A stretch of 64,000 nucleotides of DNA. Source: Cladopsammia gracilis (Eukaryota; Cnidaria; Anthozoa; Scleractinia; Dendrophylliidae). This document shows positions 11,772 through 53,290 of this stretch, piece after piece. The notes below the pieces were generated by a model that saw only the letters and a list, made by a program, of their open reading frames with translations, was not told the DNA's origin and made no database searches. The first letter of the stretch is position 1; every line of letters begins with the position of its first letter. The stretch lies in the NCBI GenBank assembly GCA_022457155.1, contig JAJGOT010000436.1, positions 498,001-562,000 of the forward strand, in the 5' to 3' direction. The translations under genes were made by a program, and so were the position numbers.

Positions 11772-11957
11772 TATTGTTATCGCAGATAATCTACTTTCTT
11801 AAGTCTTGCTCGTTTCAGTCATAACGTAAATGTAAGTCATAAAATTTGATCTCAGATTATCCCAAAATATGCAACATTAATAATTTATGCATAATTAGGT
11901 ATAGCAGAAAATACAACATGATTGCACGACTTGAAATACATTACATGTACAATGTAC

Positions 11958-13078
11958 CTTGGTGCAAGTGTCTCATCCCTTTGTAAAAGAACATCACTGG
12001 TGCCACCCTCCGCACAACATACACTAGTAAGGATGCTTATTTGGGCACGATTGTCCTTTCGCACAGTCCACTTCTTCATTAAAACTTGGTCATTGTCAAT
12101 TGCCGTCAATAGGTCATTTTCAGGCATGGTGGGCACTTCCATTGTTAACCCATCAACCCATGACTTCATGGTTGTGTATTGCCCCGCAGGGTGCAATTTC
12201 CCATACATATTGACAGCCATTTTGCTTCGTGCAATCGAGTACATCACAAGGTTTGATCCAAACATTATTGGACTAATGAAGTTTGGCCTCACTAAACCAT
12301 ACATATGGTCAACAGCCATAACTTTTTTGACGGGTTTCGTACTGCTATCACTCAACCCATTGACTACACTTTTAAGGACAACATTTTGCGACGTAAGCCA
12401 AGATTCAGGTGTCACTGTCAACAGATCACAAATGTTCTTGTAACTTCGGTCGCAATTGTCAGCTTTCATGTTTTGCCTCTCGAGGGAAAAGATAGTTTCA
12501 ACTAATTTCAAAAGTAGCTGTCTATCAATTTTTTTCACAGACGAAAATATATCGTGAGGATCAATAAAAACAAGACCAAAACGAGAGCAAACGTCGTGAC
12601 ATAATGCTTTTGCTAACTCCTCATCAATAAGATGCAAGTTCTCTGATATGTTGTGAAAAATATCACAAGAGGTTTTCTCAGACTCATCTTCTTCTTCTTC
12701 CCCACTCGCCGTATCACTTCCACTTGCCACATCAACTCGTTTCCGTTTCTTAGTCAGACTTGGTCTTCCAACCTTTTTGTTTCAAATACACGAGGTTCCT
12801 TCTGTGTGAGGCTTCCAAGAATATGAAGTACATGTATTAGTCAGACCAGGCGTAGGTTCTCCTCTCGAAGCTGACTCTCTTAGGCGATAAAAATGTCTCA
12901 CACATGACTGACAAATATGTGGTGGATGTATGAAGTCATTGTCTTCTTCAATATCGATGCCATAATCTCTTCTAAATTCATTCTTGAAATTACCTTTGGC
13001 TTTAGCACTTTTTTTGGTGGTCTTCCCACAAAATCGACAAAGGTTTGCTATTTTCCTTTTATGTTCATCAGATGCCAT
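11958..13078 (-). pseudogene. Zinc-finger/basic-patch protein of the GTCAA element, one in-frame stop
   Basis: Two ORFs in one frame (13078-12782 and 12730-11958) are separated by a single TGA at 12782-12784, so they read as one 5' exon of about 373 codons. Near the N-terminus are a CRFCGK pair (Cys-x2-Cys) and a second ICQSC pair, a likely zinc-binding module. After the stop comes a basic AT-hook-like or nuclear-localisation patch (GRPSLTKKRKR), then an acidic stretch and a longer domain containing DNDQVLMKKWTVRKDN. The exon ends at AAG before GTACAT, a usable donor, so the C-terminal exons lie further left or are lost. I do not recognise a named family. Its place inside 31-bp TIRs suggests it is the element's transposase or accessory protein. 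The stop may be decay of an Arg CGA codon. Confidence 0.6.
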
Positions 13079-13384
13079 CTAAATTCCAGGTACATGAAGC
13101 AAGCACCAAAACCTACAGGATCACAACGAGCCGGTTAAAACAGTCAAAATTGTTCAAGGGCAGCATTTGGAAAACGGTTAAATACAAAACGGTCGACGTA
13201 AGGTACAACAGATTCGAGTGTAATTCCCTAGTCAAGCCTTATTGAACGGAGCACACAACGACTAGACTTTCAATAAAGTCCTTCGTCTTATTTATGGCCC
13301 GCCGGGACGAAGATACCCCGAATAATAAACAGACAGATAACAGCAACGTTGAAAACACAAAATGGCGGTTAGTAACGGAATTAG

Positions 13385-13907
13385 GGCTTATTGTACTTTG
13401 CGAAACGAAATGGAACGAAACGAAATGGGAAATCTGTACTTTGCGAAATGGGAAATCTGTACTTTGCGAAATGGGAAATCTGTACTTTGCGAAATGGGAA
13501 ATCTGTTCTTTGCGATATAAACAAGTAGCAAGTCGAAATTCGTCGTACCGTACAATCCACTGAATTGAACGATCCTTGTGTGATGTCTCTGTGTATCTGT
13601 TTCTTTCTTAGTCGCTTGCGACACCATCCCAGCCGGATATGTCACGCTAGCAAGAAAATCTGTACTTTGCGAAATGAAAAAATTAAAATCTGTACTTTGC
13701 GAAATGAATAAATAAAAATCTGTACTTTGCGATTTAAACAAGTAGCAAGTCGAAATTCGCCGTACCGTACAATCCACGTTCCTTAATCTTTGTGTATCTG
13801 TTGCTTTCCCTGTCGCTTGCAACATCATCACAGCCGGAAATGTCACGCAAGCAAGAATATCTGTACTTCGCTGTTGTAGTTGTTACGTGTATGAAAAGGA
13901 CCATAAT
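13385..13907 (+). repeat. MULE-1 left TIR with 23-bp iterons
   Basis: The TIR begins GGCTTATTGTACTTTGCG. CTGTAC or CTGTTC starts recur at 13434, 13457, 13480 and 13503, exactly 23 bases apart, each followed by TTTGCGAAATGGG or a variant. Further in there are two copies of a module starting AAACAAGTAGCAAGTCG (near 13525 and 13736). It matches the right TIR as far as GAAAAGGACCA. The iterons are candidate transposase-binding sites, as in other MULEs with subterminal repeats. Confidence 0.85.
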
Positions 13908-14732
13908 TTGCGTAATAAGAATAATAAACTGTAATAACAAAACATTTCATTATTTATTCATATGGAAATATCTCCAGAAATTGTCAATCAAAATTGTGGT
14001 AGAAAAATATTTCCTGTCAAAAGAATAAAGAAACAAACGAACAATTGAATTTAACAAAATTTCTCAGAAAAAAACACATCTGATCTTGATATACCCCAAA
14101 TAGTAAATGAAAATTGGAAAGTTAAACTGAAACTAGTAAACTAACCACTTTATATGGTAATCGATCGACGCTTATATAATATATGTACACTGAACTGAAA
14201 ACAGTAATCATTCTTCAAATAATCCATTTCTAAAAAAGTTCAAATCAGTTCTGGCCAATGATAGATTGTTAAATTACAAACGGCCAGTGGGATGAAACCC
14301 GGAACTATAAACGCGCATATAATCTGTTCATAGATGCTGCACTTGAACTCATTACTCTACAATGACACTACAGCTACTTGAACCGCTCTACAATTTCGAT
14401 CATTTGGAATTAATGTAAACCAGAAAGCATTCGATTACTCTCGGATCTCAACACAACAGCAATTTCGCAGTATTTTAAACAATTCAAAACAGCGATCTAC
14501 CTGGAGATTTTGTCGTAAGTGACGTTTGAATCTCAAGTCACGTTCACAATCAGCCTAGGATTATGAAACTGTTGTGAAAATCTAAATAATAAAGCAATGC
14601 ATTTACGATTGAAATTGAAACAAGACGGAGAGGACCACATAAAAGGTAGTTAAATGTACCTAAACAATACGCTTTGGTTTTCGTATCCAGGAAATAAATG
14701 ACTCTGGGCTAACTGACGCGATAACCGGCAAA

Positions 14733-17392
14733 TCAAACTGACGTGTGTAGGGCTTCCTTTAAAAGTTTCACATGGCCTTCTTTTAAGTTCAGTTTCACGT
14801 TTTCCTCAATTTCAATCATTCCCTTCCAAACGTAGGGATGCCTGCGCAGAATGCACTCTTTCTTCACACAATAATATTTCGAAGCTTCCCGATTCCAAGT
14901 TGGTTCCATTGTGATTTTTTCATTACTGTGTTTCTTTGGATAATAGTATCGTTCCTTATGAAGTATCGCGATGTCTTGTGGAATACAGACCACTCCACCT
15001 CGTGCAAATTCTACTTTACAGGACTCGCACTTTCGGGCTTTGGCTTCGTCTTTTGTAAACACAACAAAGAACTTGTTGTTGCTGTGCCATATTTCTGAGA
15101 AGGCGAGAGGCTTCTGGAAATCGATGTCGTTGTCTGGTCTTTCTATTTCTTCCACAATTGGATCAAGCTCAACATTGTTCTGTCCTTTTCTTTTCTTCTT
15201 TTCCTTCGGTTTTTCACCAGCCCGCTTTGGAATATTGGCATAGAGTATGTTACCTGCCTTGTCTTTCTTTTTGTTGAAATTTTGCAAGAAATCAGATAGT
15301 GATCCCATTGTATCGACCACAGCAAGAATATGGGCACAAAGGCCTGATGTGCTTTGGGCATTGCGGCACCGACATGTTGGGATATTTCCTTTGACCATCA
15401 CATTCACACTGTTGGCGAACTCTGTCACGCAATACGTTCCTCCTCCCAAATCGATCACGTTGTAGTTGGATACAATCATTTCGGCCTCATGCCAAATTTG
15501 ACTTAACATTCCAGAGGCAACGCTTGTGACTCCACAGTCTGTAACTGTAACGGACAGTTTCTTGGTAGGTTTGATCTGATTGGCACTGGACACACTCATA
15601 GGGACCTTGAGCACTTTCTCTACGTGTTCACGTTGCTGTTCGGGTGTCTTCTGTGACCAGACTAGTGGAGTAACAGCAAACTTTTGGAATTCGGGAGCCA
15701 ACCTGTATTCCCCCATGCTGTAAATGGCCTTGATGTACTCATTCTCTTGCTGTTGCACGACTTCAGATTCTAGAATTTCGTAAATGGTGGCCTGATCAGT
15801 TACCTGGTTCTCACATGCTTCTTTAATGACGTTGTTAAGCGATTCAGTCCGTTGGTTGTCCCATTTATTTGGGGGATTACCTAGACCAGCAGCGATTCTT
15901 GTCGGCTTCAACATACAAAACTTCAAAGTCGACTTCATAGACCTGTGCCTCCCTTTTGTGGTTACCATCCACTCTTTAAATTTTTCTGGCCAATGTGTTT
16001 CTTTCTCTACGTAGAGCTCTTCAAAGTCTGTTTCATTTTCACAATCGACCAGACCCTTTATGCGTTTCCCCCCGAATTCGCTTCCTAATATTTCTTGTTG
16101 GATTTCATTTCTTTTGCTTTCCAAGACGTTGAGATCTTTTAGTTTCATGAGAATGTCTCCTTTGGCATGGTCAAAGCAGCGTAGGTGGATGTTGTTTTTA
16201 GTGGTGGTCTCAATGGGGTAAACGCTCTCAAAACCACTTTCTAGGGCACACTCTCCATCCGTTCCGAACATCAGGGACTCTATTCCTTCTGCCTTCAACG
16301 ATCTCGCAAGGTACTCGTAGTCACGCTTTTCCTTGGATACGGAAGTCATCACAGCTGCCAGGGTTGTCGGGTGTTTGTTTGTGTTGTTCTTGTAAACGAA
16401 AATTGGATTTGGAAGCGTAACTGTTGTGAGGTAGAATGGCCCTAACTTATACGTCATATCCACGCCAGCGACTGCAGTTGGACTGGAACCAAGGCGGCAG
16501 AACTTTTTTATCCACCCGATGCTATAATTTGTGGCTGCAAACGTGCTGGCTGCTGCTCGTATTTCGCCATTCTTGTGTGGTCGTGCGCCCAGACTTACAT
16601 CGCGAACGAATCTTCCGGCTTGTTGTAGACACAACAACTTCGTGATATCGGGTGACTTAGTAGGGCCAGTGCTCCTGGATTTCTTTCTGCCTTCAACTTT
16701 TCGAAGTTGATTGTATACTTGTTGTCTGTCTCTCGGGATGTCCGATGGAGACGATATGGAAACAACACCCCCGGCTTCCTTTTGAATTTTGTTGATTACT
16801 TGTTTTGCGCTACTCTTGACACCTATTTCTCTCATTCTCTCCAATATACTTGGCTTCGTTCTCACTTGTGGTGCCGAGGAACGTATCTTTCCAATTCCTT
16901 GGTTGGCGAAGACTGCTTTTGCCTCATCAGGGGTCATATCAACGGTATATTGGACAATCGCAAATCGCAGAAACTTCCCTTGGTGTTCAACTTTTGCTAT
17001 CATGCGGCGAAAGCTTTTGTTTTTTCTTGTCCAACTATACTGCCGTCTTATGACAAAGTGGTCGAAAGAGTTCTGGGGCGTTAATCTGGTTTCGGTGTCC
17101 CGCTTATCCTTCCTATTAATGGCACTGACTCTTCCCTGCTCGTCGAGCAAAACCTGAAAGTCCTCAGATGGACTGGAATGAGCACCATAAACTCCGTTGT
17201 CATCTACCGTCAAGTCCTTATGGTAGACTGCCTCTAGGTCAACGATGAAAATTGCGCTTTGTGTTATACCAGCCGGTACTCCTGTACATACTTTCGTATC
17301 TGTAGCATTACCCTCGATACAAATTTGTAAAATTTCTTTAGAAGTAATTCCTGATTTTGATCTTTTGTATACGGGAAAGCCATTTATGTGAC
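14733..17392 (-). CDS. MULE-1 exon 4: MULE transposase with SWIM zinc finger
   Basis: The exon starts after acceptor TTCACTTTCAG with two bases that complete Ser, then 885 codons to a stop at 14733. Counting from the internal Met at 17213, the MULE DDE core has Asp252 in GVDMTYKLG, Asp319 in FGTDGEC and Glu457 in QRTESLNN. A SWIM finger follows (CRC at 614-616 and CAH at 626-628), then a Lys-rich stretch and a C-terminal Cys-x2-Cys...Cys/His finger (Cys729, Cys732, Cys782, Cys787, His791). In MULE transposases the core cuts and joins DNA at the TIRs and the zinc modules bind DNA. The reading frame is undamaged. With exons 1-3 the product is predicted at 1,874 residues. Whether proteolysis separates the parts is unknown. 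Confidence 0.9.
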
Positions 17393-17808
17393 CTGAAAGT
17401 GAATTAAAATGAAAGTAAATATATGGAAACGATATATGTAAACTGCGGATGAAACATGAGTGAATTTTTTTGCTATCAACTTAACGAGTGGAAAGAGAAA
17501 CCTGCATGGCAATGGATATGAACAAAAACTTCACTCAAATTAAAAATTAACAACAAAGCGCAAAGTTGACCGAAGAAGTTACAGACTCGGTGAGTTCCCG
17601 CTTACATTTATGCTTCCATATAAAAAGCGACTATATATTTTAGATTATTCATGGCAGACACCTAAAATAGGTCGCGGTGGCACACGAGCCGTTTAAAACT
17701 TTTTGCTTGCCATTTCTTGTACGTGTGGGCTGGTAGATACCATGTTAAGACCATTGCCTATTGGCTAACGGATTGAACTACCAATACAAAGATCCTAAAT
17801 ACACTTAC

Positions 17809-17899
17809 TGGTATATTCAAATGGACACTGATTCAAATCTTGGTCATCAGAGTCACTTTCATCCCCAATGTGTCTTTTGCGAGAGCAACTTGTTTGTCT
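17809..17899 (-). CDS. MULE-1 exon 3: small acidic linker exon
   Basis: A 91-base exon follows a strong acceptor (TTTCTCCTTTACAG) and ends A before GTAAGT. It starts in phase 0 and leaves one base, matching exons 2 and 4. It encodes about 30 residues with a basic start (RQTSCSRKRH) and an acidic run (DESDSDDQD). No domain is recognised. Phase agreement on both sides is the main support. Confidence 0.7.
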
Positions 17900-18185
17900 C
17901 TGTAAAGGAGAAAGTACAATTACAGTTACTTTACAAATAAGCTTTTTATGCAAAATCGTGTGCGATTTTAAGAATTGACGTTTTCGTTTTATCTCGAGTC
18001 CCGTGTTTTTCGATGTATAGTACCGCTATATATTTTTACGCGTTGTTTGAATTTTGACTCGCCCTGTGGGATCGTCAAAATACAGCCATCAGCCATTTTG
18101 AGAGCTGTACACACCGGTGCACGCACAGGCAAACAACCTTTTTACAATAATTCCCAAGCAATTGCGCAACTCTCAAGTAGTTTAA

Positions 18186-18829
18186 GGCCTGGGTCAAGGG
18201 CTTTGACCAGGAAAAACGGTTTTTTCGTAATAACTTTTACAAACGGAATGGAACAAAATGAATCGAAATTTGGCACATAGAAAGATGTTAGCGTCCTTAA
18301 CATTTTTAAGTATAATAAACTTTGGCCTAGGTCACGTGACCATTTTTCTTAAAATAGCAAATATTTGACGAAATGGTGACGGGATTAAGAGAAAACATCA
18401 AATAAAAATGCTTTTCTGATGCAGATTAAATATCTCCGGCCCTTCACGTTTGGAATGAGTGTCCATTAATCTCTAAAAAAAATATGAGGGCAAAGGTTAT
18501 TTTGCAGTCCAAAATTCAACCTATAATTATTTATAACTGTAATTTAAAGACTTGAGGACAATCATTCTAAACGTAGAAGGTTAGATATGTTAAACCTCCA
18601 TCGAAAAAGCTAATTTATTTCACTGTACAAAGAAAATTCGCTACCAAATCGCCGATTTACGTAATTTTAAAATTTTGAACACGTGACATGTCACGTGACC
18701 AATCTTCTGCGTTAATTAAAAGAAAACATCAAGATTAACATTCAGGGAAAATTTCATTTTGATCTAGGTTTTCTCGGTGAAGATATTAAGTGTCAACCAT
18801 ATTTTCCGAACATACTTTAAACCCAGGCC
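18186..18829. mobile_element. TTAA-flanked MITE inside MULE-1 intron 2
   Basis: The ends GGCCTGGGT and ACCCAGGCC are bounded by TTAA at 18182-18185 and 18830-18833. It lies wholly within the intron between 18861 and 17900, so it postdates MULE-1 and leaves the splice sites intact. Confidence 0.75.
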
Positions 18830-18861
18830 TTAAACTGCTTGAGCTAAAGATATCAACATAC

Positions 18862-19837
18862 CTTACTCAAAGACAAGTGATCAACAGTGTCTGATGCAGG
18901 GCAGCTATCTCCATCTTTACTCCTAGGTAATGAAGATGAGGAAACATCTTGGTCTTCACTTAAATCAATAAAGACGGAATCTACCGTTTGATGCCTTCTG
19001 CCACAATCAGCGGGTTCCTTGCCTGATAACTCATTCGCGTCGTCCACGATAACAGCCTCGGAGGGACGCCGTCCACCACTTTCTTGGGAAGTCACATCTG
19101 ACCGTCCACTGGCATCGTCTCTGGGGCGTCCACTGTCAGCGGCGGCTGAACTACGTTTAGGTACTGAATATTCACTGACATCGTCTCTGGGGCGTCCACT
19201 GCCAGCGGCAGCTGAACTAACACCTGATCGGTCATCTGTCCTGCTACGCTTAGGTACTGAATGTTCACTGACATCGTCTCCGGGGCGTCCACTGCCAGCG
19301 GCGGCTGAACTAACACCTGATCGGTCATCTGTCCTGCTACGCTTAGGTACTGAATGTTCACTGACATCGTCTCCTGGGCGTCCACTGCCAGCGGCGGCTG
19401 AACTAACACCTGATCGGTCATCTGTCCTGCTACGCTTAGGTACTGAATGTTCACTGACATCGTCTCCGGGGCGTCCACTGCCAGCGGCGGCTGCACTAAC
19501 ACCTGATCGGTCATCTGTCCTGCTACGCTTAGGTACTGAATGTTCACTGACATCGTCTCCGGGGCGTCCACTGCCAGCGGCGGCTGCACTAACACCTGAT
19601 CGGTCATCTGTCCTGCTACGCTTAGGTACTGAATGTTCACTGACATCGTCTCCGGGGCGTCCACTGCCAGCGGCGGCTGAACTAACACCTGATCGGTCAT
19701 CTGTCCTGCTACGCTTAGGTACTGAATGTTCACTGGCATCGTCTCTGGGGCGTCCACTGCCAGCAGCGGCTGCACTAACACCTGATCGGTCATCTGTCCT
19801 GCTACGCTTAGGTACTGAATGTTCACTGGCATCGTCT
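18862..19837 (-). CDS. MULE-1 exon 2: repetitive linker with PKRSR motifs
   Basis: It starts after a clean acceptor (TTTCATTCCAG) at 19837 with one base, which completes the codon left by exon 1, and runs 325 codons to AAG before GTATGT (18862). The frame has no ATG, so a simple ORF scan misses it. Seven to eight copies of a 31-residue repeat (core DDVSEHSVPKRSRTDD) are followed by an acidic tail with VFIDLSEDQD, reminiscent of a SUMO-interacting motif. PKRSR could act in nuclear import or be phosphorylated. Both are guesses. It lies between the protease and transposase domains in the predicted polyprotein. Confidence 0.75.
19120..19837 (-). repeat. 93-bp coding minisatellite in MULE-1 exon 2
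   Basis: Units repeat every 93 bases (for example the block starting CACCTGATCGGTCATC at about 19220, 19313, 19406 and on to 19778), nearly identical. Since 93 is divisible by three and has no stops, long ORFs appear on both strands. Only the minus frame reading PKRSRTDD has matching splice sites. Confidence 0.9.
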
Positions 19838-20755
19838 CTGGAATGAAATGAGTAAAATCAGTGCTAATACTTACGAAACGTCAAGATGCATATCGGTTTG
19901 GAAAATTCGCATTATTCTCAAAAAATAGATCTATTAACTATGCTGGACTGGCGGTTTGGGACTGGCACTAGATACCCACGCGTGGGTGTTTTAACGCCCC
20001 CCCCCCCCCCCCCCCCCCGGGCATACTGTAGAATTCAAAGTTGTTATGTTTTCGGTAGCTGAAGGATAGAAGGATGCTCTTCTGGGAAAATCACTTTTTA
20101 GGGATAATGAATAATTAATTTGTTTTGTTTTATTCCCCCAAGCCTCGGAGCCAAGTATGAATTTTAATATATCGGAATTGGTCTATTATAATCTCTTGAT
20201 TCTAACTGAGTACCAGGCAGTTGTAAGAAAACTATACTGAAAAACTGGGATGAGCAAACTAACGTATCAAGAAAAGCGAATCAACTTTGGAAACAATGGC
20301 ACTGTTTTATTTGATCGGTTTTGGTCATATAAGGCAAAAACCCATTACTTTGGAAACAATGGCTATACCGACAACTGCTCAAGCGGGAAATTTGAAACTT
20401 CGGCGAACCAGAACTAAGGAACGCTGTTATTATCATGTACGCTGTTATTTTTAAACCGTTTAAATATCGCGCGCTTGTTGTTTGAAACTTTGATGTGCGC
20501 GCTTTGAGGCTAAAAGACTGTCTAATTCTGTCTATTTCCCTCCCCAACAAGGGGAGGGAAATACTAAAGCCAGCCCAATTCCTAAGTTACCCAAGAATAC
20601 TTGTGAAATGAATAGCAGGGTGTGTTCTCATACTAGTTGTTTGATGTGTTTGAGTTTAAAAGGCAAACATATTTAGAGGCATGGACAAAATGATTACTGC
20701 AAGCGATTAGCAAAGTTAATCCAACACATTCGAAAGAAATGTTTATAGCACTTAC

Positions 20756-22653
20756 TTAGATTGACTTGTAATAACTGCGAGTGACTGGCATACGTCTTGT
20801 TTTACGCCTTGGTGGTGCAGTCTTTTCCAAAGCCAGGCGCAGAGAGACATCCACACTTCCGACGTGTTCTCCTTTCCAATCAACAACAGCCCCATACCTT
20901 TCCCAGGTTCCAAGGTCACTGGGTGTGTATCGATCAAGTATGGCCTACCATCACGACACCCAACCGTTAGTACTAATGGATCACTGGTGTAGACAGCAAG
21001 GAAGTCGCCATCACACCCAAGATTATAGAGTTTGGAATGCAGTTTCTTTCTGCCTTCAAAACCAAAGACAGTATCCGCAAATGGTAATTCTTCAGAGAAA
21101 TCGTAGGACGATGTTATAACCTTCAGCTCTCTGAGAATTCCATATGCTTCCATGGCGTCGTACATTCTGTGGAGGTCTCTACACACGTTTATTGTTTCCG
21201 GCAGGTGCCAAATTGTATCCTCAATGACTTCGGCCAAATTATCGAAAAATTCCTCCCCTGTAACCACTTCGCTCAGTATAAGGTCAGCGATCTTGACGGA
21301 GAGAAAGGCACATGCGTTAGTACCGTCGTTAGTCAAGACATATTCCGGCTGTCGAACTGGCTCTTTATTGCCAGCGTCTTCCAGCTGAGCGGCAAGCTTG
21401 TGATCGAATTGCTGTACTGCAGTGCCTTGACTAACTTTCAGCTGCATGACCTCGAGATCTATTGAAACCCTTTCGTTCTCTCTGCTCAGGATATTGGCTG
21501 CCTCATTTAAAGACAGCCTGCCACGCCTGTCAAACTTAGCGCATCCTCTGTAAACCTCCTCTAAACCTCTCCAAACGGTCCCCCGTTCAACCACGTACTT
21601 TTCGTCGGGCAGTGGGTGCTTCATTTGGCGCAGAAGGGAAGAGATGAAGATTTTTAATTCATCTTGAGAAGTAATGCTTCCGGCCGATCTGATCTCTGCA
21701 CAAAAGGGATACTTAAGGCTAGGATTTATCATCGAAAAGAAAATCATGCCTAGGGCCCAAACATCCGCAAGAAATAAGTCATTGGTCGATGCGCCAGATA
21801 TGAGCATCTCCTTGACAAAGAGTTTCGGTGCCATGTATACCACTGTCCCGCGATCAATGTTATTTGTTTTCGAGGCAACAAGAGACTGCGTTCGGACTAG
21901 CAGGGAGCGACTCTCTCCAAAATCGGTTAGCTTGCAGACAACAGGCCTGGATTCATATTGCCTCATGATTTCGTCACCGTCTGACAATGTACAATAATGC
22001 TGATTGCTTATCAGTATATTTGCTGGCTTCAAATCCCTATGTGCTATTCCTTTCGAATGAAGGTGGGCTAGTCCATTGATAATTTCCTTCGCTGCATGGT
22101 TGATTAGCTCGCAAAATCCGGCATCACAGCCGAAATCGTCGATTTGCAGAAGAAAATCAGAGAGGGAATGTACACACACATCCTGACCGAAGTGCTGGAA
22201 ATCAAAATAAACATATTCAAGCATCATGGCAAGCGGCTGGCAGGAAACTCCTTTCAATCGCACAATGTTGCCATGATTTAGGCCGTGAAGAAGTTCAACT
22301 TCTTTATAGAAAAGTTTCTTCTCTTCTTGGTCAAGGACTTGCAGCATTTTCTTGATGACAACTGTTTCACATGTCGCGGCTCCCGAGCCTTTGTAGTCAA
22401 CTGTGTAAACATCGCCAAAAGCTCCTTGTCCTATTCTCTCTTTCACTGGCAAATCATTGCAATTGAAGCGTGGGATGCTTCCATCAATTGCATTTCCACT
22501 TGGCCCCTTTCGTAAAAGCTGTGGAAGCTTAAATTTCCGAAACATCGACATAGCTGAAGATTTTGAACCGCTCTGATCTAATGGCTGATTTTCGCGCCAA
22601 AATGGTTGTCTCGCGTGCGCTTTGCGACCTTCTACCCTGTAGCATGTTCTCAT
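20756..22653 (-). CDS. MULE-1 exon 1: protein kinase fused to a papain-like protease-like domain
   Basis: The exon has 632 codons plus two bases. The Ser/Thr-type kinase domain spans about residues 70-390: glycine loop GQGAFGDV (75-82), ATP-binding lysine in VIKK (101/102), catalytic HRDLKPAN (205-212), DFG (244-246) and an APE-like MAPK segment near 274. From about 430 a second domain starts with a conserved GTNACAF (Cys448) and ends with LIDTHPV (Asp575, His577). Cys near the start and Asp-x-His late is the layout of herpesvirus tegument-type (C76) deubiquitinases and related papain-fold enzymes. That is resemblance of motif only. Alignment with MULE-2 suggests the true start may be the Met at 22551 or 22545 (MSMFRKFKLP). 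The exon ends TCTAA before GTAAGT (20755-20750) and joins the next exon in phase, making Lys. Confidence 0.85.
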
Positions 22654-22778
22654 TTTGTCACGAGACTATTTACATCATCAAAACAACAAAACAACGCTTT
22701 TAACATTTCGGTCGGCTTGAAATGACTCATGCATATTTTTCAATTATATATATCGAACATTACAGCAGGATTTGGATT

Positions 22779-23295
22779 TTGGTCCTTTTCATAAAAGTAA
22801 CAACTTCAACAGCGAAGTACAGATTTACTTGCTTGTGTGACATTTCCGGCTGTGATGATATTGCAAACGACAGGGAAAGCAACAGATACACAAGGATTTT
22901 CATTTATTCATTTATTCATTTCGCAAAGTACAGATTTGCATTTTTTCATTTCGCAAAGTACAGATTTTCATTTTTTCATTTCGCAAAGTACAGATTTTCT
23001 CGCTAGCGTGACATATCCGGCTGGGATGATGTCGCAAGCGACAGATACAACAAAGACATCACACAAGGATCGATCATTTCAGTGGATTGTACGGTACAAC
23101 GAATTTCGACTTGCTACTTGTTTATTTCGCAAAGTACAGATTTCCCATTTCGCAAAGTACAGAATTCCCATTTCGCAAAGTACAGATTTCCCATTTCGCA
23201 AAGTACAGATTTCCCATTTCGCAAAGTACAGATTTCCCATTTCGTTTCGTTCCGTTTCGTTTCGTTCCATTTCGTTTCGCAAAGTACAATAAGCC
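22779..23295 (-). repeat. MULE-1 right TIR with 23-bp iterons
   Basis: Reverse-complement partner of 13385-13907, with an extra iteron and one copy fewer of the AAACAAGTAGCAAGTCG module. The gene's ATG lies only about 130 bases inside it, so the promoter is probably within the TIR. Confidence 0.85.
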
Positions 23296-23703
23296 CGGAA
23301 TTAGACCGTGAATCAAGACCACCCCATGCACTTTTTTCCTACAGTTTGCATTCGGATAAATAACAGTTGCATCGAAAGAAAATAGTTTGAAGATCAGCTC
23401 CATAATTTTTTTGACTGTGACAAAATTATTTTACTAACCTAACCTTAAAGGCAAAGTTGAAAAACCTACCTCATTTGAACGTGATATTCCAACCGCCCTG
23501 TCACTTCTCGTACAAAAATTTCACATCTATCATTCCGTGGTGACCGCCATCTTTCTTGCCCTTGAAGAACAGTGCCCTTTTCACCAATCTCCAATAGAAT
23601 TATGGGTACATAAGGCGAGCAATACCGAATAAAAAACGAACAACACGAACGGGGTACGAAAATCTTCGATTTCCAAAATGGCCGCCATGTTGTGACGTAA
23701 CGT

Positions 23704-27608: not shown

Positions 27609-27931
27609 CTACATAACAAAGCATAGCTAGATAAACTTATATACTAATAATTGACAGCTTTTAAAAGATTGTGCAAATGGATAATGTCTCGGGGTTTCTC
27701 CTAGTCGCCGCCATTTTGAACTCATTCTACTTTATATTTTATTTTATTATTTGAGAAATAAATTGTTGTTATCGTAAAAAGGGTTGTTGTTGTTCATCGT
27801 GGTGAACACACTAGTAAAGAAGTATTTTTCGTTTGTCTCACGATGTAGTCACTTCCGATGTGGATCGCGACGTTTCGACTGCATGCTGCTAGTCTTCTTC
27901 AGGCGATGGGGTCGACTGGTTACGCGTCACC

Positions 27932-28055
27932 TTATGAAGCACGATGCTCTGCTGTGATTGGTTGGTTTTCAACAGCTGTGACTGGCGCATTTTGATCCTC
28001 GTTGTTTCGGCGAATTGTTACCTCGGCGGTCCGTAGTCGTACGGCTCTCCTGTTG

Positions 28056-28108
<53 letters not shown>

Positions 28109-29490: not shown

Positions 29491-29529
29491 GTCTGATCTT
29501 GTTGTTAACGGCACAAACAGCCGCCTACA

Positions 29530-30899: not shown

Positions 30900-30948
<49 letters not shown>

Positions 30949-31033
30949 CAACAGGAGAGCCGTACGACTACGGACCGCCGAGGGGACAATTCGCCGAAAC
31001 GAGGATCAAAAATGCGCCAGTCACAGCTATTGA
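29530..31033 (+). pseudogene. Inverted twin RT/GIY-YIG copy with the YVDD motif destroyed
   Basis: Same product as the copy at 27932-29490. At 30048-30058 the bases encoding Val-Asp-Asp are replaced by a 9-base tract that copies the adjacent CTTCACC sequence. This removes the catalytic aspartates and shifts the frame by one, ending the ORF at 30096. The rest continues in another frame from 30143 through the GIY-YIG domain (CECGKVYIGETG) to 31033. The change looks like template slippage during synthesis. The C-terminus also differs from its twin by a small frameshift. Confidence 0.85.
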
Positions 31034-44636: not shown

Positions 44637-44775
44637 GGCATACTGTATTTCGAGGACTGGACTGGACTGGACTGGACTGGACTGGACTAGTAAAACGCGG
44701 ACTCAAAAATTTGTAAAACGCGGACTCAAAAATTTGTAAGATGCGGACTCAAAAATTTGTAAAAAAATTCCGGGA
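44637..44775 (+). repeat. MULE-2 left TIR with iterons
   Basis: It starts GGCATACTGTATTTCGAG, then six to seven GGACT pentamers, then three 23-bp units with the core ACGCGGACTCAAAAATTTG. Inverted partner at 53105-53290. Confidence 0.85.
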
Positions 44776-45339
44776 GTCCACATTTCTAACCCCACATTTC
44801 TAATTTCCTCCCCCCCCCCCCCTAAAAAAATAATATAAAATAAATAAAGTCAGACCCCCGTCATGGACGTTTCGAGTACACATCCCCCCGCTGGGTTGTA
44901 GCTCGGGGGGTCGTAGCTTGCAAACCAGTCTATTTTGTTTCGGGACTAGGTTATAGTTTGTTGTGTTACTTTCAAAACTAACACACCATCGATATCTTAA
45001 ATGCAATTGAGCAAGCCCAAAACAGTTTTACAGGCCCGAAAAGGTACCGAACGAGCCCCAGTTAAGGGAAGGCCAAAATTTGTCACGCATTATTACACGC
45101 ACCAAGAGCCTATTTTTTATGGGCTCCTGACGCACGCAGCATTCAGCATTCAGCATTCATATTATATTTTATTTTAGCCTTTTTCCCAGCCTCCACACCT
45201 GAAGCATAAGATTTTGAATTTTTATTGTCATTACGTGACACTGGATTAAGTGACATCGACAACGGAAACGAGGCTGTTGACCTTTGAGCAGTAAAATCGC
45301 GCCAAAATTCGGAATATATTTTCACGTGGCGGCGCGAAG

Positions 45340-46494
45340 ATGGCGGCTTGTTTTAAGCTTCCATCGCTCGCTAAAAGGCCAAAACCAAAAACACAGTTTC
45401 CTGAGTTCGAATGGAGTGAGGTAACTGTAGAGAAGGAGCTCGGAAGCGGTACGTTTGGTTCAGTTTACCTTGTCAAATACGAGAAAGAACACCGTCGAAA
45501 TGTAATTGTGAAAAAAATGAAAGGTGAATCGGCCGAACCAAGACGTCGATTCGAGAAGGAAGCGGCGATCCTAAAAACCGTGAAAGGCCATAGAAATGCG
45601 ACTGAGTTTTTAAGATTTTGCCGAGAACCCTACGCCATAATGATGGAGCATGCTTGTTTTGACTTCAATCCGTTGGGAGTTAAAATACAGGTAAATTCGC
45701 TTGAAGATTTTTTACATTTCGTTGATGCGGAATTCGACTTTACGTCGTTCGCAGATGTCTTGTTACTGTGTGCGCGGGACGTTGTTTCCGGATTGGACTT
45801 TCTCCACAAGAACAATATCGCGCACAGAGATCTAAAGCCAGGAAACACCTTGGTCTGCAATCAACTTTACAGCAAACAGAATGATGTGGATCTGGCCAAA
45901 TCCTATGCTGAATGCCCCATTGTCTGCAAACTTGCAGATTTTGGTTTGAGTCGTTCCCCTGACATGCAGACAAGCACATTTTTAAAGCCGAAGACGGTAT
46001 CACCTTGTCGTGGCACACCTGTATTTATGGCACCAGAGATCCTATTAGAAGATCTAAAGTTCGCTGGTCAGGAGGACCTTAAAAAGGCTGATATTTGGGC
46101 TTTAGGCCTCATGATGTTCTCGATGATAAATCCAAATCTTTCTAATCCATATCGTGCTGAATTTGAAGCTTCTGGTGTCCCATTCTCGGAAAAGGCTTTG
46201 AGAGATACCTTGAGACAGCAGAAGCTACCCCGTCCTGACGTCAAATACGAGTCTTTCCGGACAACTCAGTGGTGGCAAATTGACGACGTCTTCAAATTAT
46301 GCACACAATTTGACCCAGAATCAAGACCGACTGCCGCTGAAGTTTTTAGGCTCCTAGATACTAATCAACCGGAGGCATCTCTACGTTTGATGAATTTGTC
46401 TGTGAATCAGAGCTCTGCCCAGACACCACAGGATGACGGTACCAACTGCTGTGCGTTCCTTGCCCTAATCATTTGCGACCGATTCTTGAACGAG
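45340..46494 (+). CDS. MULE-2 exon 1: protein kinase domain and protease catalytic-Cys segment
   Basis: 385 codons from an ATG in good context (GAAGATGGC) to GAG before GTAAAA, phase 0. Kinase motifs: GSGTFGSV (35-42), lysine in VIVKK (58/59), HRDLKPGN (162-169), DFG (200-202) and a full MAPE (229-232), so it should be catalytically competent. Near the end GTNCCAF (Cys371) aligns with Cys448 of MULE-1 and starts the protease-like domain, which continues in the next exon. The frame is undamaged although the transposase part of this copy is broken. The following intron carries TAA and ATTC microsatellites. Confidence 0.88.
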
Positions 46495-46503
46495 GTAAAA
46501 TTA

Positions 46504-46508
46504 GACGC

Positions 46509-46546
<38 letters not shown>

Positions 46547-46970
46547 TTTTTTTTAAAAAATAATTATTTTATTCTCAACTCTATAAAATGCTTGCAATTA
46601 AATAATAATAATAATAATAATAATAATAGTAATAATAATATAAAATATGTTTATTTCTCACATTCTCGCAGCTCACTGATTCAGAATTAAAATTTTGTTA
46701 CAATACAAAATATATAGAAAATTCCAATTTTGAGGGGGACTGGGTTTACAATAATTGATTAGAAAAGTTAAACTATTTTCATTCGTATATATATTAAAAA
46801 AACACTACTGCTTATTATAATTTAAAAGGAATATGGGGAAAAAGCTGGATCGCGGTCTTTCAGTTCTGCATTTGGTTAATGTAAGTTAGTTTGTTAATCG
46901 AATATCGGTTCACAACTGTATCCAATCATTCATTCATTCATTCATTCATTCATTCATTCATTCAATATGC
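46504..46970. repeat. TAA and ATTC microsatellites in MULE-2 intron 1
   Basis: (AAT)n runs at about 46511-46546 and 46603-46640 and an (ATTC)n run at about 46925-46965, all inside the intron 46495-47013. Confidence 0.9.
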
Positions 46971-47013
46971 ATCTGTATAATTCTCCAGTTAATATAATTA
47001 TTATTACTTTAAG

Positions 47014-47533
47014 GTTAACGAGAAAAGCGATGTTCAGTGGGATGACGTCAAACAAATTGCTGAGGACACTATCATTAATCTACCAAGGATGATCAACAAA
47101 CACCGAAAATTTGATCAGTATTATGACGTGTCTGAAGCAAAACTAAAACTGAAGGAACTTAAGATCTTGTCTTCCGACTATGAACTATCAGAAGAGTGCA
47201 TCTCGTCAAACACCGTGTTTTCAGATAATGGCAGAACCGAGCTGATCAATGCACTAACACAGAAGCTAGATCAGAGTGAAAGCGCCGTTGCCATTTACAC
47301 ATGTCACCCTTACATATTCTCAGTGGGAAAGCACAAAGATGCTCTGTTTTTGGTTGACACTCATCCTGTTTCTGAAGATCTTGGAGGGAACTGCAATGGT
47401 CTTTTGTTAGTGACACCAGACTGCAGTCCTCGATCCTGTAAACTACTTGTCCAATGGATTCTGAACCGACTACTCAAAGCGGGGGCATCGGAAAAGGAAC
47501 TTCAAAGTTTGGCTTGGCTAACACCAATTTCAG
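47014..47533 (+). CDS. MULE-2 exon 2: C-terminal half of the protease-like domain
   Basis: It follows acceptor TTATTACTTTAAG in phase 0 and runs 173 codons plus one base to TCAG before GTTAGA. It aligns with residues about 463-630 of MULE-1, including LKELKILSSDYELSEE against LRELKVITSSYDFSEE. The conserved FLVDTHPVS carries the Asp-x-His pair. MULE-1 encodes this region without an intron, so the intron is specific to this family or was lost in the other. Confidence 0.85.
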
Positions 47534-48067
47534 GTTAGACATTTAAACTTTGTTTAAAAAACTGCTTTACAATGAGGATGTTTGGGTTGGGTAAAAATTG
47601 CACAATAACCTGCTGATTGTAATATAGTGCAACCCGACATTCAGAATACTATTGTAAGCAATGGTGCATCTTGAGAAGTGGCCTAAACGGGCCGCAATCT
47701 GGATCCGCCATTGATTAAAGATAGATTCTTTATAATTAAAACTAATAGGTCGAGTTACTTAAAATTAGAAGATCGGATATTGCGCACGATCGAGCACGAT
47801 CGAGTAGGAAAACCGTTTTATTATTCAACTAATTGCCAAACAGGCTTATTTCAGAGCTAGAGAAAGTGAGGTTATCGCGGCTTTGCAAGATTTCGAGCGA
47901 GTCGTAGTAACCTAATGTACAAATATCTAAGTATTTCTCTTCGGTATGTCTGTATGACCGTAACAAAGCAAAGCTTTTATTGGATTCAAAATTGAAAATT
48001 ATATTTTTTTAGCGATAAACCACTGACAAAAAAACAAAGAAACGGAAACATACATTTCTTTTTGAAG

Positions 48068-48264
48068 GAACTGGAGATCACCCTCTAGGAACGAAAATGT
48101 CGAAACAAGGAAGAAAACAAGTGACAGATGACCAACATGAATTTGCTGCTGTTACCAATGGAGATGCCGATGTTACAGTTTGTGGCCAAAATGTTGACAA
48201 TGAGGAGCGCGTCACTATCGTGATTGATCTTGAAGCAACAAGCGATGAGGAACCTTTGCCTACA
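48068..48264 (+). CDS. MULE-2 exon 3: acidic linker
   Basis: Acceptor TTTCTTTTTGAAG, then two bases completing Gly from exon 2 and 65 codons, ending ACA before GTAAGT in phase 0. It contains IVIDLEATSDEE, which aligns in character with FIDLSEDQD of MULE-1 exon 2, a hydrophobic-acidic SUMO-interacting-motif-like stretch. The 93-bp repeat of MULE-1 is absent here. Confidence 0.7.
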
Positions 48265-49177
48265 GTAAGTGCACAGACTGAAAAAGGGAAAAAGCTCTCG
48301 CAGTATCAGCACAATAATAAAGGCAGAAGCATTAAAATACTACGTAGACAATGATTGTAAATTACCGCATCCAGTGCGTTTCTTCTCTTATAACGTCTTA
48401 TACACTAAACAGACATCGCTAACAAAGTTTAATGACACCGAACCAAAGCATGCAGTTTCGATTTTTTTTCGGCAAGTTACCGTTTTAACAAGTTTGACTG
48501 GCTATGTTCTATAATTATCAAATGTTCTATTGAGTTAGATATTCCAAGGAGTTACCAAACGCAATCACAGATAATCTATTGAGTTATCGAACACAATCGA
48601 ACGTTAAGTGTTTGATTGCATATACCTAAGGACAACCTAATAAATGTGGTTTGTTTAATTTCAAAAAGTAAAACATATTTATCCAAAAGGAGACATTGGA
48701 GGTGTAGACAAGTCATCTGAGAGTACGCGTAAAGGTACAGTGTATATCCAAATTTAAATTGTTTTAAATAATCAAATATAAGGTACACATTGTTTTTCAC
48801 CCTTTCTACAAACAACCTGCGCACCTGGGCGTAAGTGAACTTGGTGGTTAACCTTTGTGGACTCCTATGTCTACCTCTGAAGACATTCTCCTTGAATATC
48901 TCGAGCGCGTGGATGAATGTACTATGATGTTGAGTTTCCAAGAACCTAGCTTTTTTAATTTTACTAGACAACAAAATCGTAGAAATGTGGATCATTCTAC
49001 GCTCATTATATACCCGCGCCAACTTTGGGAAAAGGAGTGAAGTAGTAATTTTTTTCTAATTTTCGTTCTTTTCTGCATACATGCATGTATTCATACATAT
49101 GTTGGTGGCTTGCCTGTATTTTATTTTTATTTAAAATTGTAATAATACAGTATATAACTTTTTATTGTAATTTTCAG
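48265..49177 (+). other. MULE-2 intron, probably hiding one small exon
   Basis: The exon before ends in phase 0 and the exon after needs one leftover base. By analogy with the 91-base exon 3 of MULE-1, a small exon should lie here. I could not place it with confidence. The antisense ORF at 48576-49022 shows no family features. Confidence 0.45.
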
Positions 49178-52089
49178 GTACTGAAGAAGTACCCGCGGAA
49201 TGTGAGAGAAACGAAAGTGACGAGGAGGAGTTGCCTCTTGGCCCTATCGTGGAGATAATATTCTATGACGGAGACCAACGTCTACCAGTCTACAAGTGAG
49301 GCCTAACCAAAGGGATGACTACTGATGATGCGGCTGAAATTCTTTTAAATCCCTTTGCTGATCGCACATTAATGGCGACGCGTGTCCCAACAAATATATC
49401 TAAAAACACTGTCTTTGTTGTGGACACGTCGAATCTGTCAAATAAAGCTGATGTAAAGTGCGACGACCTTGGCGCTTGGTTGTGTACAGGCTCAAAGAAG
49501 TTTCCTTATTCCACAGACAACTCTGGAATTTGTCACAGATTAGAGGACAAAGACGACTGCCCACCTGACCACGTGTTGCATATAGTGCAACGCCAGTTTT
49601 TCACTAATAAAAGCTTACCCTCCTTGCGAAAGTCGATAATCTCTGCACATCGGGCTACATCAACATCGCCTCACGATTTGGCAATTGTTCAATATATGTT
49701 TACAGACGGTGAACAAGAAGTCAACATCAAGAGCCATGGGAACTCTAAAGGATCAACACCACGTCCTTTTAAAAGAACCATGCAGAGCACCCGAGAATTT
49801 GTGCAAGACAAGTTAAAAGAACATCCCCCTCGTCGAGTCATTCACTCGGTTGTCGAAGAACGAGGGGGAATCATGCAAGTCGAGTCTGCAGGCGAATTTC
49901 CAAGAAACAGGGATCAGGTGTACAACATCAACAGACAAGCGAAGCGCCAGAAGGTTGATGTACCCCTTTCCACTGGCGATCCCCTTCTACAGGTGTTGGC
50001 AAAGGCGAAGGAAGAACAGCAAGGATTGAGAGAAAACCTCTTTATCAGAGAAATCCCCTTGTTCCCAGAGCCGATAGTTTTTCTCGCCACCGACCAGCAG
50101 GTTAACTGATGTAGTGCGATTCTGCACCAATCCTGAAGCGTTCTGCATCCTGGGAGTAGACTGTACTTTTCAGATTGCCGACTATTACTACACCTTTACC
50201 ACCTATCGCAACCTGATGTTAACTACTAACAAGGGAGTCCACCCTGTCTGCATAGGACCCGACATTTTGCACAAACAAAAGCTTCTAACATCATACAAGA
50301 CTTTGCCTCTCCTAATGACAAAGTACAACAAAGACACTAGTGGTGTTCTAGACTACGGAACAGATGGAGAGGAAAACATCTTTAAGGCCATGTCGCAAGT
50401 CTTTGTAGACGCAAAGCATTTGCGTTGTGACATTCACCTGAGGGACAATGTCAAACGAAAACTGAGTGAGCTTGGAATATCAGGAAGTGTGGCCGACGAA
50501 ATTGTCTGTGATATTTTTGGAAAGGTACTTGGAGAAGTGACTGAGGGTGGACTAGTTGACTGCACTTCAGGTGCCGAGTTCGACATTGCATTGGACAATG
50601 TTAAACGAAAATGGCCAGGCTTGCACAAGAATGGTGATCAATTTACAAAGTATTTTTTAACAGATAAAGCGGAAGTTATTCGGGAAAGTGCAACGGCCGA
50701 CATTCGCTCGATGTGTGGCCTTGGGTTTCCGCCCAAGGTATATACACAAAACGCAAGTGAAAGTATGAACAGATTAGTGAAAGCGGACGAAGCTGCCAAG
50801 CTTGCAAAGAAACCAGACGGGCTTCCCCCTTCCATAGAGCGAATAAGAGGCGAAGTTAAGAGGCAACAAGACGAGCAGTTCCTCGCAGTCATTGGTCGAG
50901 GGGAATACCGATTAACTGAAGACTTCTCCTTCCTTGGGATCGACGAGAAGGACTTCTATAGAATGAGTCACAAGCAGAAGGACGCCCTGAAGAAGAAATT
51001 CTTCTCATCATCCATGTCAAGGTTACGAAACGAAGATTCAGAAGAACAAGGAACCGCCACAGAGACAACGTTATCCATAACTGCTGAAAATGCCCAGATT
51101 ATTGATATTCCCTACCCAGTGCTAAAGGGGATGTTCAGCAAGGCTGCTACAACAGTGGAAGATCCGTCCGCGCTGTGGAAAGTGCCAACTGGTGAAGGAG
51201 GTGACCCCTCATGCCCAATCAGATACATGGTTCACAGCCAAACATCACGTGAGCCTCACACTGTCCTTGTTTATCCCAAAACTGGCAAGGTGCAGTGTGA
51301 TAAAGGGTGTGTAAGCTGGTCCACGTACAGTTTGTGTTCACACACCCTAGCAGTAGCGGAGAAAGAGGGGGCTTTAAAGGAGTTCCTTAAATGGTTCAAA
51401 AGCAGAAAGCGTTCTCCTAATCTGTCAGGCCTTGCAAACGTGAACATGCCTAACAATGCTGGTCAAAAAACCGGAACAAGGAAGCGGAAAGGTGGAAGCA
51501 ATAAATCCTCAACTGATAGGAACATTGTTCGCAATCGGGTATTGCAGCCTACATCCGCACCCGTCAATGATTCATGCCCATCTGCAATTGACCAAAACAC
51601 CCCACCTTGGCCGCCAGTGTCGCCTTTGCCTCACATTCAGCTGGGTCACAGTTTCAACGTGCCTCGGACTCCACTAGTCCCTCCAATCTCATCTAATCAA
51701 CCTTACCAGCAAGCCAACGGACAGCCTCCAACCCCAAAGCGTCCAAAGCCCTTACCAGGAATTTTAGTGTTTGCCAGATTATCTTTCCTCGACAGTAAAG
51801 TCACGCGATGCTATGGCTGTGGCGACACCCTGAAGCCCGGCGGGACCAATCCACCTCCACCCGATGACCTCGTTTTGACAACACGACTTCGCCGTCAGTA
51901 TTTAAAAAAGGACGTCAACACACATCTCCAGATATTTCGTCGGTATATTATCATGTTAACCCTTATTGCATAAGGGTAACCTTCCCTGCCTTTCAACCAA
52001 ATTCATGCAGAATACCGTCGGATCTACAGCCTTTTCTTCTACCCGAACACAAGCAAGTAATTTTCGAAAGGCTTGCCGCTATGGTCTAG
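49178..52089 (+). pseudogene. MULE-2 transposase region with SWIM finger: one stop and two frameshifts
   Basis: It starts after acceptor TTGTAATTTTCAG. Damage: TGA at 49297-49299, aligned with Arg in MULE-1 (VYKR), likely CGA decay; an extra G near 50101 shifting the frame; and a second shift at about 51920-51950, after which the C-terminus continues to a TAG at 52087-52089. Core motifs survive: GVDCTFQIAD and YGTDGEENIF (Asp pair), QNASESMNRL (Glu), a SWIM finger (CDKGC ... CSHTLAV, with the first pair altered from CxC to CxxxC) and a C-terminal CYGCG pair. A proline-rich segment (about 51540-51770) separates the SWIM from the last finger. An unaided active transposase is unlikely, although sequencing error at homopolymers cannot be excluded for the shifts. 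Confidence 0.85.
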
Positions 52090-53090
52090 TTGAATTGTTG
52101 TCTGTGAGCCGGGACTATGACATCACATGTTTATCATGCTTGTGTCGATAAGTACTTTTCAAAACAGTTCTTCTGGTCGTCTGCATAATCGTTTAAGTTT
52201 TTAGATTTGATTCATTTACTAAAAAAACTCGCAATTGAAAGGTGACACGAATGGATATGATGTTACCAAGTTGTTCAGAGTACTTTTGTTTCTGTTTCTG
52301 TTAGAAGCCGGTATAATAGCGGACACTAGAACTGTTGTCTGTATGATGACATCACATTTTATTCATGTTCCTGTTGACGTTTTATTCTAGACGTTGTATA
52401 TAAGTATAGGTTTAAGTTCATGGGTGAAAAAAATCGCTTCAAGTTAAATAATTGATTGTTACGTAGTGCTAAGACTGGAAAAGAAAGTTGTTATTAAGCT
52501 GTTTAGGAAAGGAAATTGGTATTTTACAGGAATGTAAAGCGAGTTTGTAGTAAGACTTTTTTTGAAGTAACGGTTTAAAGTTGACACGAATGGATATGGC
52601 GTCAGTTACCAGGTTGCTCAAAGAACTTATGTTTCTCCTTCTAGAAGCCGGTATAATACCGGGCAATTGAACTGCTGAACTGTTGTCTGTTTTGTTACGA
52701 CATCAGATTCTCATTATGTTCCTGTTGACGTTTCATTTTGAACGTTTTTTATATAAGAAGTATTATTTGAAGACCATGTAATTCAAGTTCATGGGTAAAA
52801 GAGTTCGCTTCAGTTTCGCTTCAGTAGTTCATTTACTAAGCGTTACGTAGTGCTGAGAAAAAAAAAACGTTGTTAAAGTTTTTCATGAAAAAAGAAATTG
52901 GTATTTTAAAGGGATCTAAAGCAAGTTTGCTGAAAACTTTGTTTGAAGTAATGTTTTAAAGTGGATAGTATAATATCCGGCAATTGAATTGTTGTCTGTA
53001 TGATTATGACATCAGATTATGTTCCTGTTGACGTTTCATTCGGAACGTTTTATATAAGAAGAGATATATTCATTTTAATAAAGCAAATGT
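52088..53090. repeat. ~330-bp tandem repeats at the 3' end of MULE-2
   Basis: Three to four diverged units start with TTGTTGTCTGT (near 52095, 52334, 52680 and 52987) and share GTTCCTGTTGACGTTT, TATATAAG and AGCCGGTATAATA blocks. Each carries a TATA-like word, so the repeat could hold promoter elements for an antisense or outward transcript. AATAAA lies at about 53077. Confidence 0.75.
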
Positions 53091-53104
53091 TTTAGTTATT
53101 TATG

Positions 53105-53290
53105 TATTTATTTTTATTTCTAGTCCGCGTTTTACAAATTTTGAGTCCGCTTTTTACAAATTTTTGAGTCCGCGTTTTACAAATTTTTGAGTCCGCGTTT
53201 TACAAATTTTTGAGTCCGCGTTTTACAATTTTTTTTACAAGTTTTACTAGTCCAGTCCAGTCCAGTCCAGTCCTCGAAATACAGTATGCC
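53105..53290 (-). repeat. MULE-2 right TIR with iterons
   Basis: Read inward from 53290 it matches the left TIR: GGCATACTGTATTTCGAG, GGACT pentamers, then five units. GAGTCC positions at 53166, 53189 and 53212 give a 23-bp period. Confidence 0.85.

Follow-up and report, generated by a model that had tools for sequence, protein, structure and literature searches.

A Mutator-like element of the coral Cladopsammia gracilis with a predicted kinase-deubiquitinase-transposase protein and a module apparently exchanged between transposon lineages

The DNA analysed here (the window) is a stretch of 64,000 nucleotides from contig JAJGOT010000436.1 of the stony coral Cladopsammia gracilis. It contains a Mutator-like element (MULE) of 9,911 bp, E1, which spans positions 13385-23295 and carries a gene of four exons on its minus strand (Table 1). 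Once joined, the four exons comprise 1,874 codons and a single terminal stop, and 3/3 introns have GT/AG borders; the predicted parts are, in order, a protein kinase, a protease-like domain, a repetitive charged linker and a transposase. This four-exon model had been proposed in a first-pass annotation made from the sequence alone, and it holds, with all splice sites kept in a second copy of the element described below. The frame also reads open throughout, as that annotation stated, but the openness of exon 2 is by itself weak evidence of coding because this exon consists mostly of a 93-bp tandem repeat (7.4 copies). Intron 1 contains a run of 22 C at 19997-20018.

The terminal inverted repeats (TIRs) of E1 have arms of about 520 bp, start with GGCTTATTGTACTTTGCG and differ by 39 mismatches in 482 aligned columns, and a perfect 9-bp target site duplication (TSD), CGGAATTAG, is found on both flanks. 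The repeat that hosts E1 is present in at least 13 further copies, which match the 485-base flank on the left of E1 at 94-100% identity (best 40 of 185 candidates scored). Both junctions fetched from such paralogous copies (2/2, contigs C691 and C1390) are uninterrupted, with one CGGAATTAG, and represent the empty site. In the source genome (878 Mb searched), the 18-base TIR end occurs 90 times with at most one mismatch versus once for the reversed control, so the ends of E1 are not there by chance. Eight further TIR pairs with fetched flanks had TSD matches of 9/9 in six cases, 8/9 in one and 7/9 in one. The boundaries given in the first-pass annotation, TIRs and a perfect 9-bp duplication, are borne out by the duplication on both sides, the two empty sites and the enrichment of the TIR end.

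A second copy of E1 on contig C1040, of the kind that the annotation had suggested searching for, has its own TSD, TTGTGCCTG, and the same cargo. It is 99.32% identical to E1 over 9,787 aligned positions and keeps every donor and acceptor site, while its exon 2 is shorter by exactly 93 bp, one repeat unit. The kinase-protease-transposase cassette therefore moves as one unit. The two near-identical insertions with different TSDs point, indirectly, to transposition of the E1 family. Pack-MULEs consist of gene fragments without a transposase, whereas the transposase sits within the E1 and C1040 units.

Shorter relatives of E1 were also found. The copies on C1055, C1253, C271, C1184, C768 and C1030 match the kinase frame only in its first 114 residues (71-96% identical) and have TIR ends of E1 type no more than about 3 kb away; they are apparent non-autonomous derivatives, and the one on C1055 (1,331 bp) has TIRs and the kinase start without a TSD. 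At C263:571596-580525 and C1270:225836-231596 (loci L022 and L024), the kinase-protease frame stays open as far as the SWIM region of the transposase, giving 766 and 719 aa. That these are two fused elements was rejected, since their 12-base flanks and TSD are identical save one base, and they were counted as one insertion; the frame is probably an in-frame internal-deletion product and not proof of a fusion. The repeat that hosts E1 (11885-13078 on the minus strand, with its flank to 13384 and resuming at 23305) contains a frame with a Pfam RAG1_imp_bd match (5.5e-08), next to a 298-aa frame without Pfam match, and is possibly a recently amplified RAG1-like element.

The exon 1 frame of E1 ends at a TAA that lies within the predicted splice donor, and this arrangement recurs. 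We compared 18 hand-chosen protease ends from eight families. In six of these, the frame is first closed by a TAA that belongs to a phase-2 GTAA: E1 (with C1040), C203, C964 (with C997 and C318), C284, C707 (with C579, C873 and C450) and C1389. A pattern flagged GTAAG in E1, C1040 and C284, and the others were judged by eye (GTAAGC in C1389, GTAAAT in C203, GTAACT in the C964 and C707 groups). GTAA is found at 22/276 open reading frame (ORF) ends in the window, which gives P ~6e-6 for six of eight. Phase-2 donors predict AG/G, AA/G and AT/G codons across the splice point, so proteins translated up to it are expected to end in K, R or M. Among 120 listed database relatives of the kinase-protease, the conserved C-terminal motif is reached in 61, which are not independent of each other, and the last residue is K or R in 43 of the 61 (48 if M is counted), compared with a background of 42/276. 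In the Exaiptasia protein P0181 (1,617 aa), a single chain comprises kinase, protease, 30-aa repeats and transposase, and the chains of P0033 and P0091 run past the protease into the linker. Splicing thus likely joins exon 1 to the exons for the linker and the transposase, giving one predicted polypeptide.

Each element might instead make two proteins, a stand-alone kinase-deubiquitinase of 633 aa that ends at the donor TAA and a transposase on a separate message, the module then being a linked accessory gene. Exon 1 indeed forms a full reading frame closed by a stop of its own, and some MULE groups have two ORFs (PMC6446971). Several points count against the single chain and in part favour this alternative. 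GTAA is absent in two of the eight families, namely E2 (5 copies, GTTAG) and the C1355 fragment (neither), and the fuller GTAAG is found in only three of the six GTAA families (E1, C284, C1389), the others having GTAAA or GTAAC. P0181 is the sole fusion-length database match to the whole 1,874-aa query and a 'partial' record, and P0010 of Acropora millepora (598 aa) ends at the exon 1 stop. Two proteins are nevertheless unlikely in view of the shared phase of the stop-containing donors in six of eight families, the resemblance of the exon 2 donors of E1 and E3 (a third element, see below) and the continuation of P0181, P0033 and P0091 into the linker. Of the single polypeptide in the first-pass annotation, the three parts on one strand are observed and the single chain is likely, with P0010 as the conflicting record.

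The kinase of exon 1 matches Pfam Pkinase (5.6e-33) and shows a kinase fold in structure comparison. In an alignment of 56 proteins, gapped sequences being set aside at each position, the hallmarks of eukaryotic protein kinases are conserved: the VAIK Lys in 51/51, the HRD Asp in 56/56 and the DFG Asp in 56/56.

The C-terminal domain of E1 exon 1 has no Pfam match. Its proposed Cys...Asp-x-His active site is supported by the same 56 proteins (Cys 56/56, Asp 49/51, His 50/51) and by a protease fold, and agrees with the catalytic residues of viral tegument-like deubiquitinases (VTDs). A fold search with the full model listed kinases only, and the protease was therefore modelled alone; the best fold matches of this predicted structure are ubiquitin-cleaving VTDs, as expected for the VTD/M48 fold. 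We conclude from the model that the domain likely has a tegument-type (VTD) deubiquitinase fold, with predicted cleavage of ubiquitin. An Ulp1/C48 identity was set aside: there was no Pfam C48 match, and none of the 50 listed fold matches was a chain of this kind, an absence from that list. Lower-ranked fold matches were AvrPphB (1ukf) and domains of Mcf and lymphostatin, kinds of domain that are self-processing. Together with the position of a protease fold with conserved catalytic residues between two enzymes, these matches would fit a polyprotein in which the Cys/Asp-x-His domain cuts the chain and frees kinase and transposase. We regard such self-processing as very unlikely, as the best matches cleave ubiquitin and the compared linkers are largely dissimilar, with no common cleavage site evident, although no systematic search for one was made.

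The transposase residues D, D and E are each conserved in 34/34 aligned sequences and the Cys/Cys/Cys/His ligands in 34, 34, 33 and 33 of 34, as expected for a MULE-type DDE transposase with a SWIM zinc motif. At E-values up to 1, Pfam MULE is matched in 12/34 and SWIM in 18/34 of the relatives' transposases. The DDE/SWIM transposase of the first-pass annotation is therefore upheld by the family alignment, while E1's own SWIM match is below threshold (19.0 bits vs the Pfam cut-off of 19.6) and E1 has no Pfam MULE match. E1 has TIRs and a 9-bp TSD, the latter shared with C1040 and E2 and within the range of about 8-11 bp of MULEs. The long TIRs, the TSD and the DDE transposase do not agree with a Helitron, and no helicase is among the Pfam matches of E1's three main frames.

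A second MULE in the window, E2, has its parts in the same order as E1, and its kinase is 35-37% identical to that of E1. The flanks abut, with an overlap of the nine TSD bases, in 5/5 copies fetched for the repeat that hosts E2. Its transposase is also found at C953, C583 and C1006, which are separate insertions because their right flanks differ from that in the window and among themselves; the kinase is also found at C953 and C583, and none is listed at C1006. An AAT-rich stretch (46528-46562, poly-Asn in frame) interrupts the E2 protease after the Cys motif and may be an intron or decay. Outside E1 and E2, the window contains a caspase domain (Peptidase_C14, 2.6e-52; 26779-27636, minus strand) and near-identical reverse-transcriptase frames (RVT_1), back to back on opposite strands, at 27932-31033.

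Table 1. Features of the elements E1 and E2 in the window (a slash marks the splice point)
Feature	Position	Strand	Remarks
E1 left TSD CGGAATTAG	13376..13384		Also present singly in empty sites
E1 left TIR (GGCTTATTGTACTTTGCG...)	13385..13907	+	Holds short internal tandem repeats
E1 exon 4, MULE-type transposase	14733..17392	-	D, D, E codons ~16460, 16259, 15845; SWIM C-C-C-H ~15374-15332
E1 exon 3, short charged linker exon	17809..17899	-	Splice sites kept in C1040
E1 exon 2, linker of 31-aa repeats	18862..19837	-	93 bp x 7.4; SIM-like VFIDLSEDQD near end
E1 exon 1 end and splice donor	20750..20757	-	AA/GTAAGT; TAA within is first stop of exon 1 frame, phase 2
E1 exon 1, protein kinase and likely VTD-fold deubiquitinase-like domain	20756..22653	-	Kinase residues ~65-395; deubiquitinase-like ~400-632 (C448, D575, H577)
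E1 right TIR	22776..23295	-
E1 right TSD CGGAATTAG	23296..23304
E2, second MULE	44637..53290	+	TIRs (GGCATACTGTATTTCGAGGACTGG...) unrelated to E1's; 9-bp TSD GCAAAGATG both sides
E2 kinase frame	45295..46563	+	Reaches protease start (DDGTNCCAFL)
E2 rest of protease domain	46993..47538	+	LVDTHPV
E2 linker frame	48019..48360	+	SIM-like VTIVIDLEATSDEE
E2 transposase frames	49171..51973	+	23-27% identical to E1's

A third element, E3 (C203, ~492190-502269), has TIRs of about 950 bp with 99.5% identity and, at the ends read, a CAATGTTTG duplication. Its kinase is 74% identical to that of E1 and its transposase only 24%. The reverse holds for C263 and the Exaiptasia protein P0181, which share 54-56% with E1 in the transposase (C263 over 197 residues only) and 33-38% in the kinase; the TIR end of C263 is E1-like. 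C707 and C263 are 62% identical in the kinase and 22% in the transposase (130 overlapping residues). In the quartet of E1, E2, E3 and Exaiptasia (LG+G4), the preferred pairing is E1+E3 for the kinase-protease (519 sites, by 55 log units) and E1+Exaiptasia for the transposase (676 sites, by 45), and each data set rejects both alternative trees in the approximately unbiased (AU) test. Because the two trees conflict in this way, we conclude from the sequence comparison that the kinase-protease-linker module has evidently been exchanged between transposase/TIR lineages. The E3 linker has its 3' end and donor in common with E1 (GAG/GTATGTTGACAT vs AAG/GTATGTTGATAT), but a different 38-aa repeat, and the linker introns are likely the joints of this exchange. 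A motif of the form hydrophobic-[VI]-D-L-[acidic/Ser], which we take to resemble a SUMO-interaction motif (SIM), is found in four of six linkers (E1, E2, E3, P0033) and absent from P0091 and P0181; the SIM-like regions of E1 and E3 are homologous.

The kinase is far from unique in the genome. The genome lists are lower bounds, the transposase searches having scored the best 50 of 303 and 70 of 337 candidates and the kinase search the best 70 of 304. They contain at least 70 kinase matches, merged by hand to at least 57 loci, and at least 79 transposase loci. A listed transposase lies within 12 kb of 16 of the 57 listed kinase loci (~0.12 expected), downstream on the same strand in 16/16, and at five more loci (C203, C248, C679, C169, C1033) the fetched DNA shows co-oriented transposase sequence downstream; the module is thus upstream of and co-oriented with the transposase in 21/21 associated loci. 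A unique host kinase gene, with TIRs flanking the transposase alone, was the outcome that the first-pass annotation had named as contrary to its proposal; the multiple kinase loci, 21 with a downstream transposase, and the copies with the same cargo contradict it, and a unique host gene was rejected as a candidate. At C248 (L023, in a 905-aa open frame) and C679 (L016), the kinase frame leads directly into transposase sequence, and the protease domain is lacking.

Outside this genome, relatives of the E1 kinase-protease amount to at least 365 proteins at E <= 0.001, scoring having been confined to the 8,000 candidates with the most shared words. They were found in cnidarians, sea cucumbers and one nemertean; the named hosts of the listed relatives include Acropora, Actinostola, Paramuricea, Holothuria and Lineus, and the nearest named relatives are from corals and sea anemones. 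Between E1 and E3, the ratio of non-synonymous to synonymous substitution (dN/dS, NG86) is 0.141 for the kinase (dS 0.94) and 0.125 for the protease (dS 1.17), both dS values being near saturation. These values indicate purifying selection on both domains between the two families.

From these results we consider E1 to be, with fair probability, an autonomous-type animal MULE whose spliced gene would encode one protein consisting of a kinase, a VTD-fold deubiquitinase, a repetitive charged SIM-like linker and a DDE/SWIM transposase. Several observations speak against parts of this reading. The glutamate of the APE motif, present in 55/56 aligned proteins and in C1040, is replaced by Lys in the window copy; the description as active-looking in the first-pass annotation applies to the kinase family, with this residue as the exception in the window copy. 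Exon 4 of C1040 differs in length by 2 nt late in the exon, which breaks the frame near the C-terminus. Because of these two changes, neither copy need be fully functional. Herpes_teg_N gave weak matches only, in 2/56 members (best 0.047) and 1/13 cut domains (0.0085), with none for E1; the sequence profiles tried do not link the protease to VTDs, and hhalign against the N-termini of the MULE transposases P0158 and P0162 was negative. The comparison of E1 with C1040 gave no sign of purifying selection (kinase 0.85 on 4 changes, protease no changes, transposase 0.93), with so few changes that it is uninformative. Finally, no transposase was seen near 36 of the 57 listed kinase loci, and the 25 or more copies of a transposase family with a 963-aa frame all lie more than 12 kb from any listed kinase, so that amplification of MULEs does not require the module. 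The last two observations, and the known capture of genes by MULEs (PMC6431247), would suit a module of passenger host-gene fragments taken up in Pack-MULE style and useless to the element. This is the least probable explanation, and a highly improbable one, given the association with divergent transposases, the dN/dS of about 0.13 between E1 and E3, the conserved active sites, the fixed order and orientation in 21/21 associated loci and the relatives in three animal groups.

Non-viral VTDs are known mainly from Helitrons. VTDs as a whole are described from Helitrons, cnidarians, other taxa and herpesviruses, with spread via transposons proposed, and recombinant Helitron VTDs cut ubiquitin chains (Nat Commun 2022, PMC9741609). 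VTD-bearing Helitrons and Helentrons resemble E1 as DNA transposons with a tegument-type deubiquitinase domain with Cys and Asp-x-His, whereas E1 is a cut-and-paste element with TIRs and TSD, and its domain follows a kinase and is too divergent for the profiles tried. The annotation had named the Kaonashi-type plant MULEs as nearest precedent; for the enzyme, the VTD fold points to these Helitrons instead as the closest precedent among transposons. Kaonashi/KIU of VANDAL MULEs shares with E1 the Mutator superfamily, a cysteine protease associated with ubiquitin/SUMO pathways and a context of anti-silencing, but is a plant, non-TIR system with the Ulp1 domain in a gene apart from the transposase (PMC13317346). 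MuDR-6_HM is a cnidarian MULE with a deubiquitinase-type domain in one ORF, though of OTU rather than VTD fold and with its TIR listed as none; the MULE accessories listed in the same source are OTU, SET, FAR1 and PMD (PMC6446971). P0158 and P0162, MULE transposases 34-35% identical to that of E1, have an N-terminal Herpes_teg_N-type domain with C and DSH motifs (Pfam 8.2e-06 in P0158, sub-cut-off 0.018 in P0162) but no kinase. The words 'kinase' and 'Mutator' do not occur in the main text of PMC9741609, nor does 'kinase' in the available text of PMC13317346, PMC6446971 or PMC6431247. Our literature search, which had most subscription journals, preprints and Repbase outside its scope, found no kinase-bearing MULE. 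New here is the apparent swapping of a kinase-protease-linker module between transposons, an exchange that the first-pass annotation did not foresee.

Retention of intron 1 would lead to the in-frame donor stop and be a simple route to the kinase-deubiquitinase alone. How the spliced product might serve the element is speculative: the transposase part could bring kinase and deubiquitinase to the TIRs of the element or to the transposition complex, where they might remove ubiquitin marks and alter phosphorylation, so that the transposase would be shielded from turnover or host repression relieved. We lean, with little more than even confidence, towards a class of animal MULEs that encodes a single kinase-deubiquitinase-transposase and trades this cassette via linker introns as a reusable counter-host module.

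In the usual picture, a DNA transposon encodes a transposase and at most an accessory factor, while these animal MULEs appear to keep two signalling enzymes under selection. Tegument-type deubiquitinases would be extended from Helitrons and herpesviruses to cut-and-paste elements, and animal proteins entered in databases as 'cyclin-dependent kinase', 'nerve growth factor receptor' or 'BCK1' kinase may be transposon products. Manipulation of ubiquitin and phosphorylation by a transposon at its own ends becomes testable, and the kept and traded kinase and protease suggest that such elements may perturb host signalling so as to transpose.

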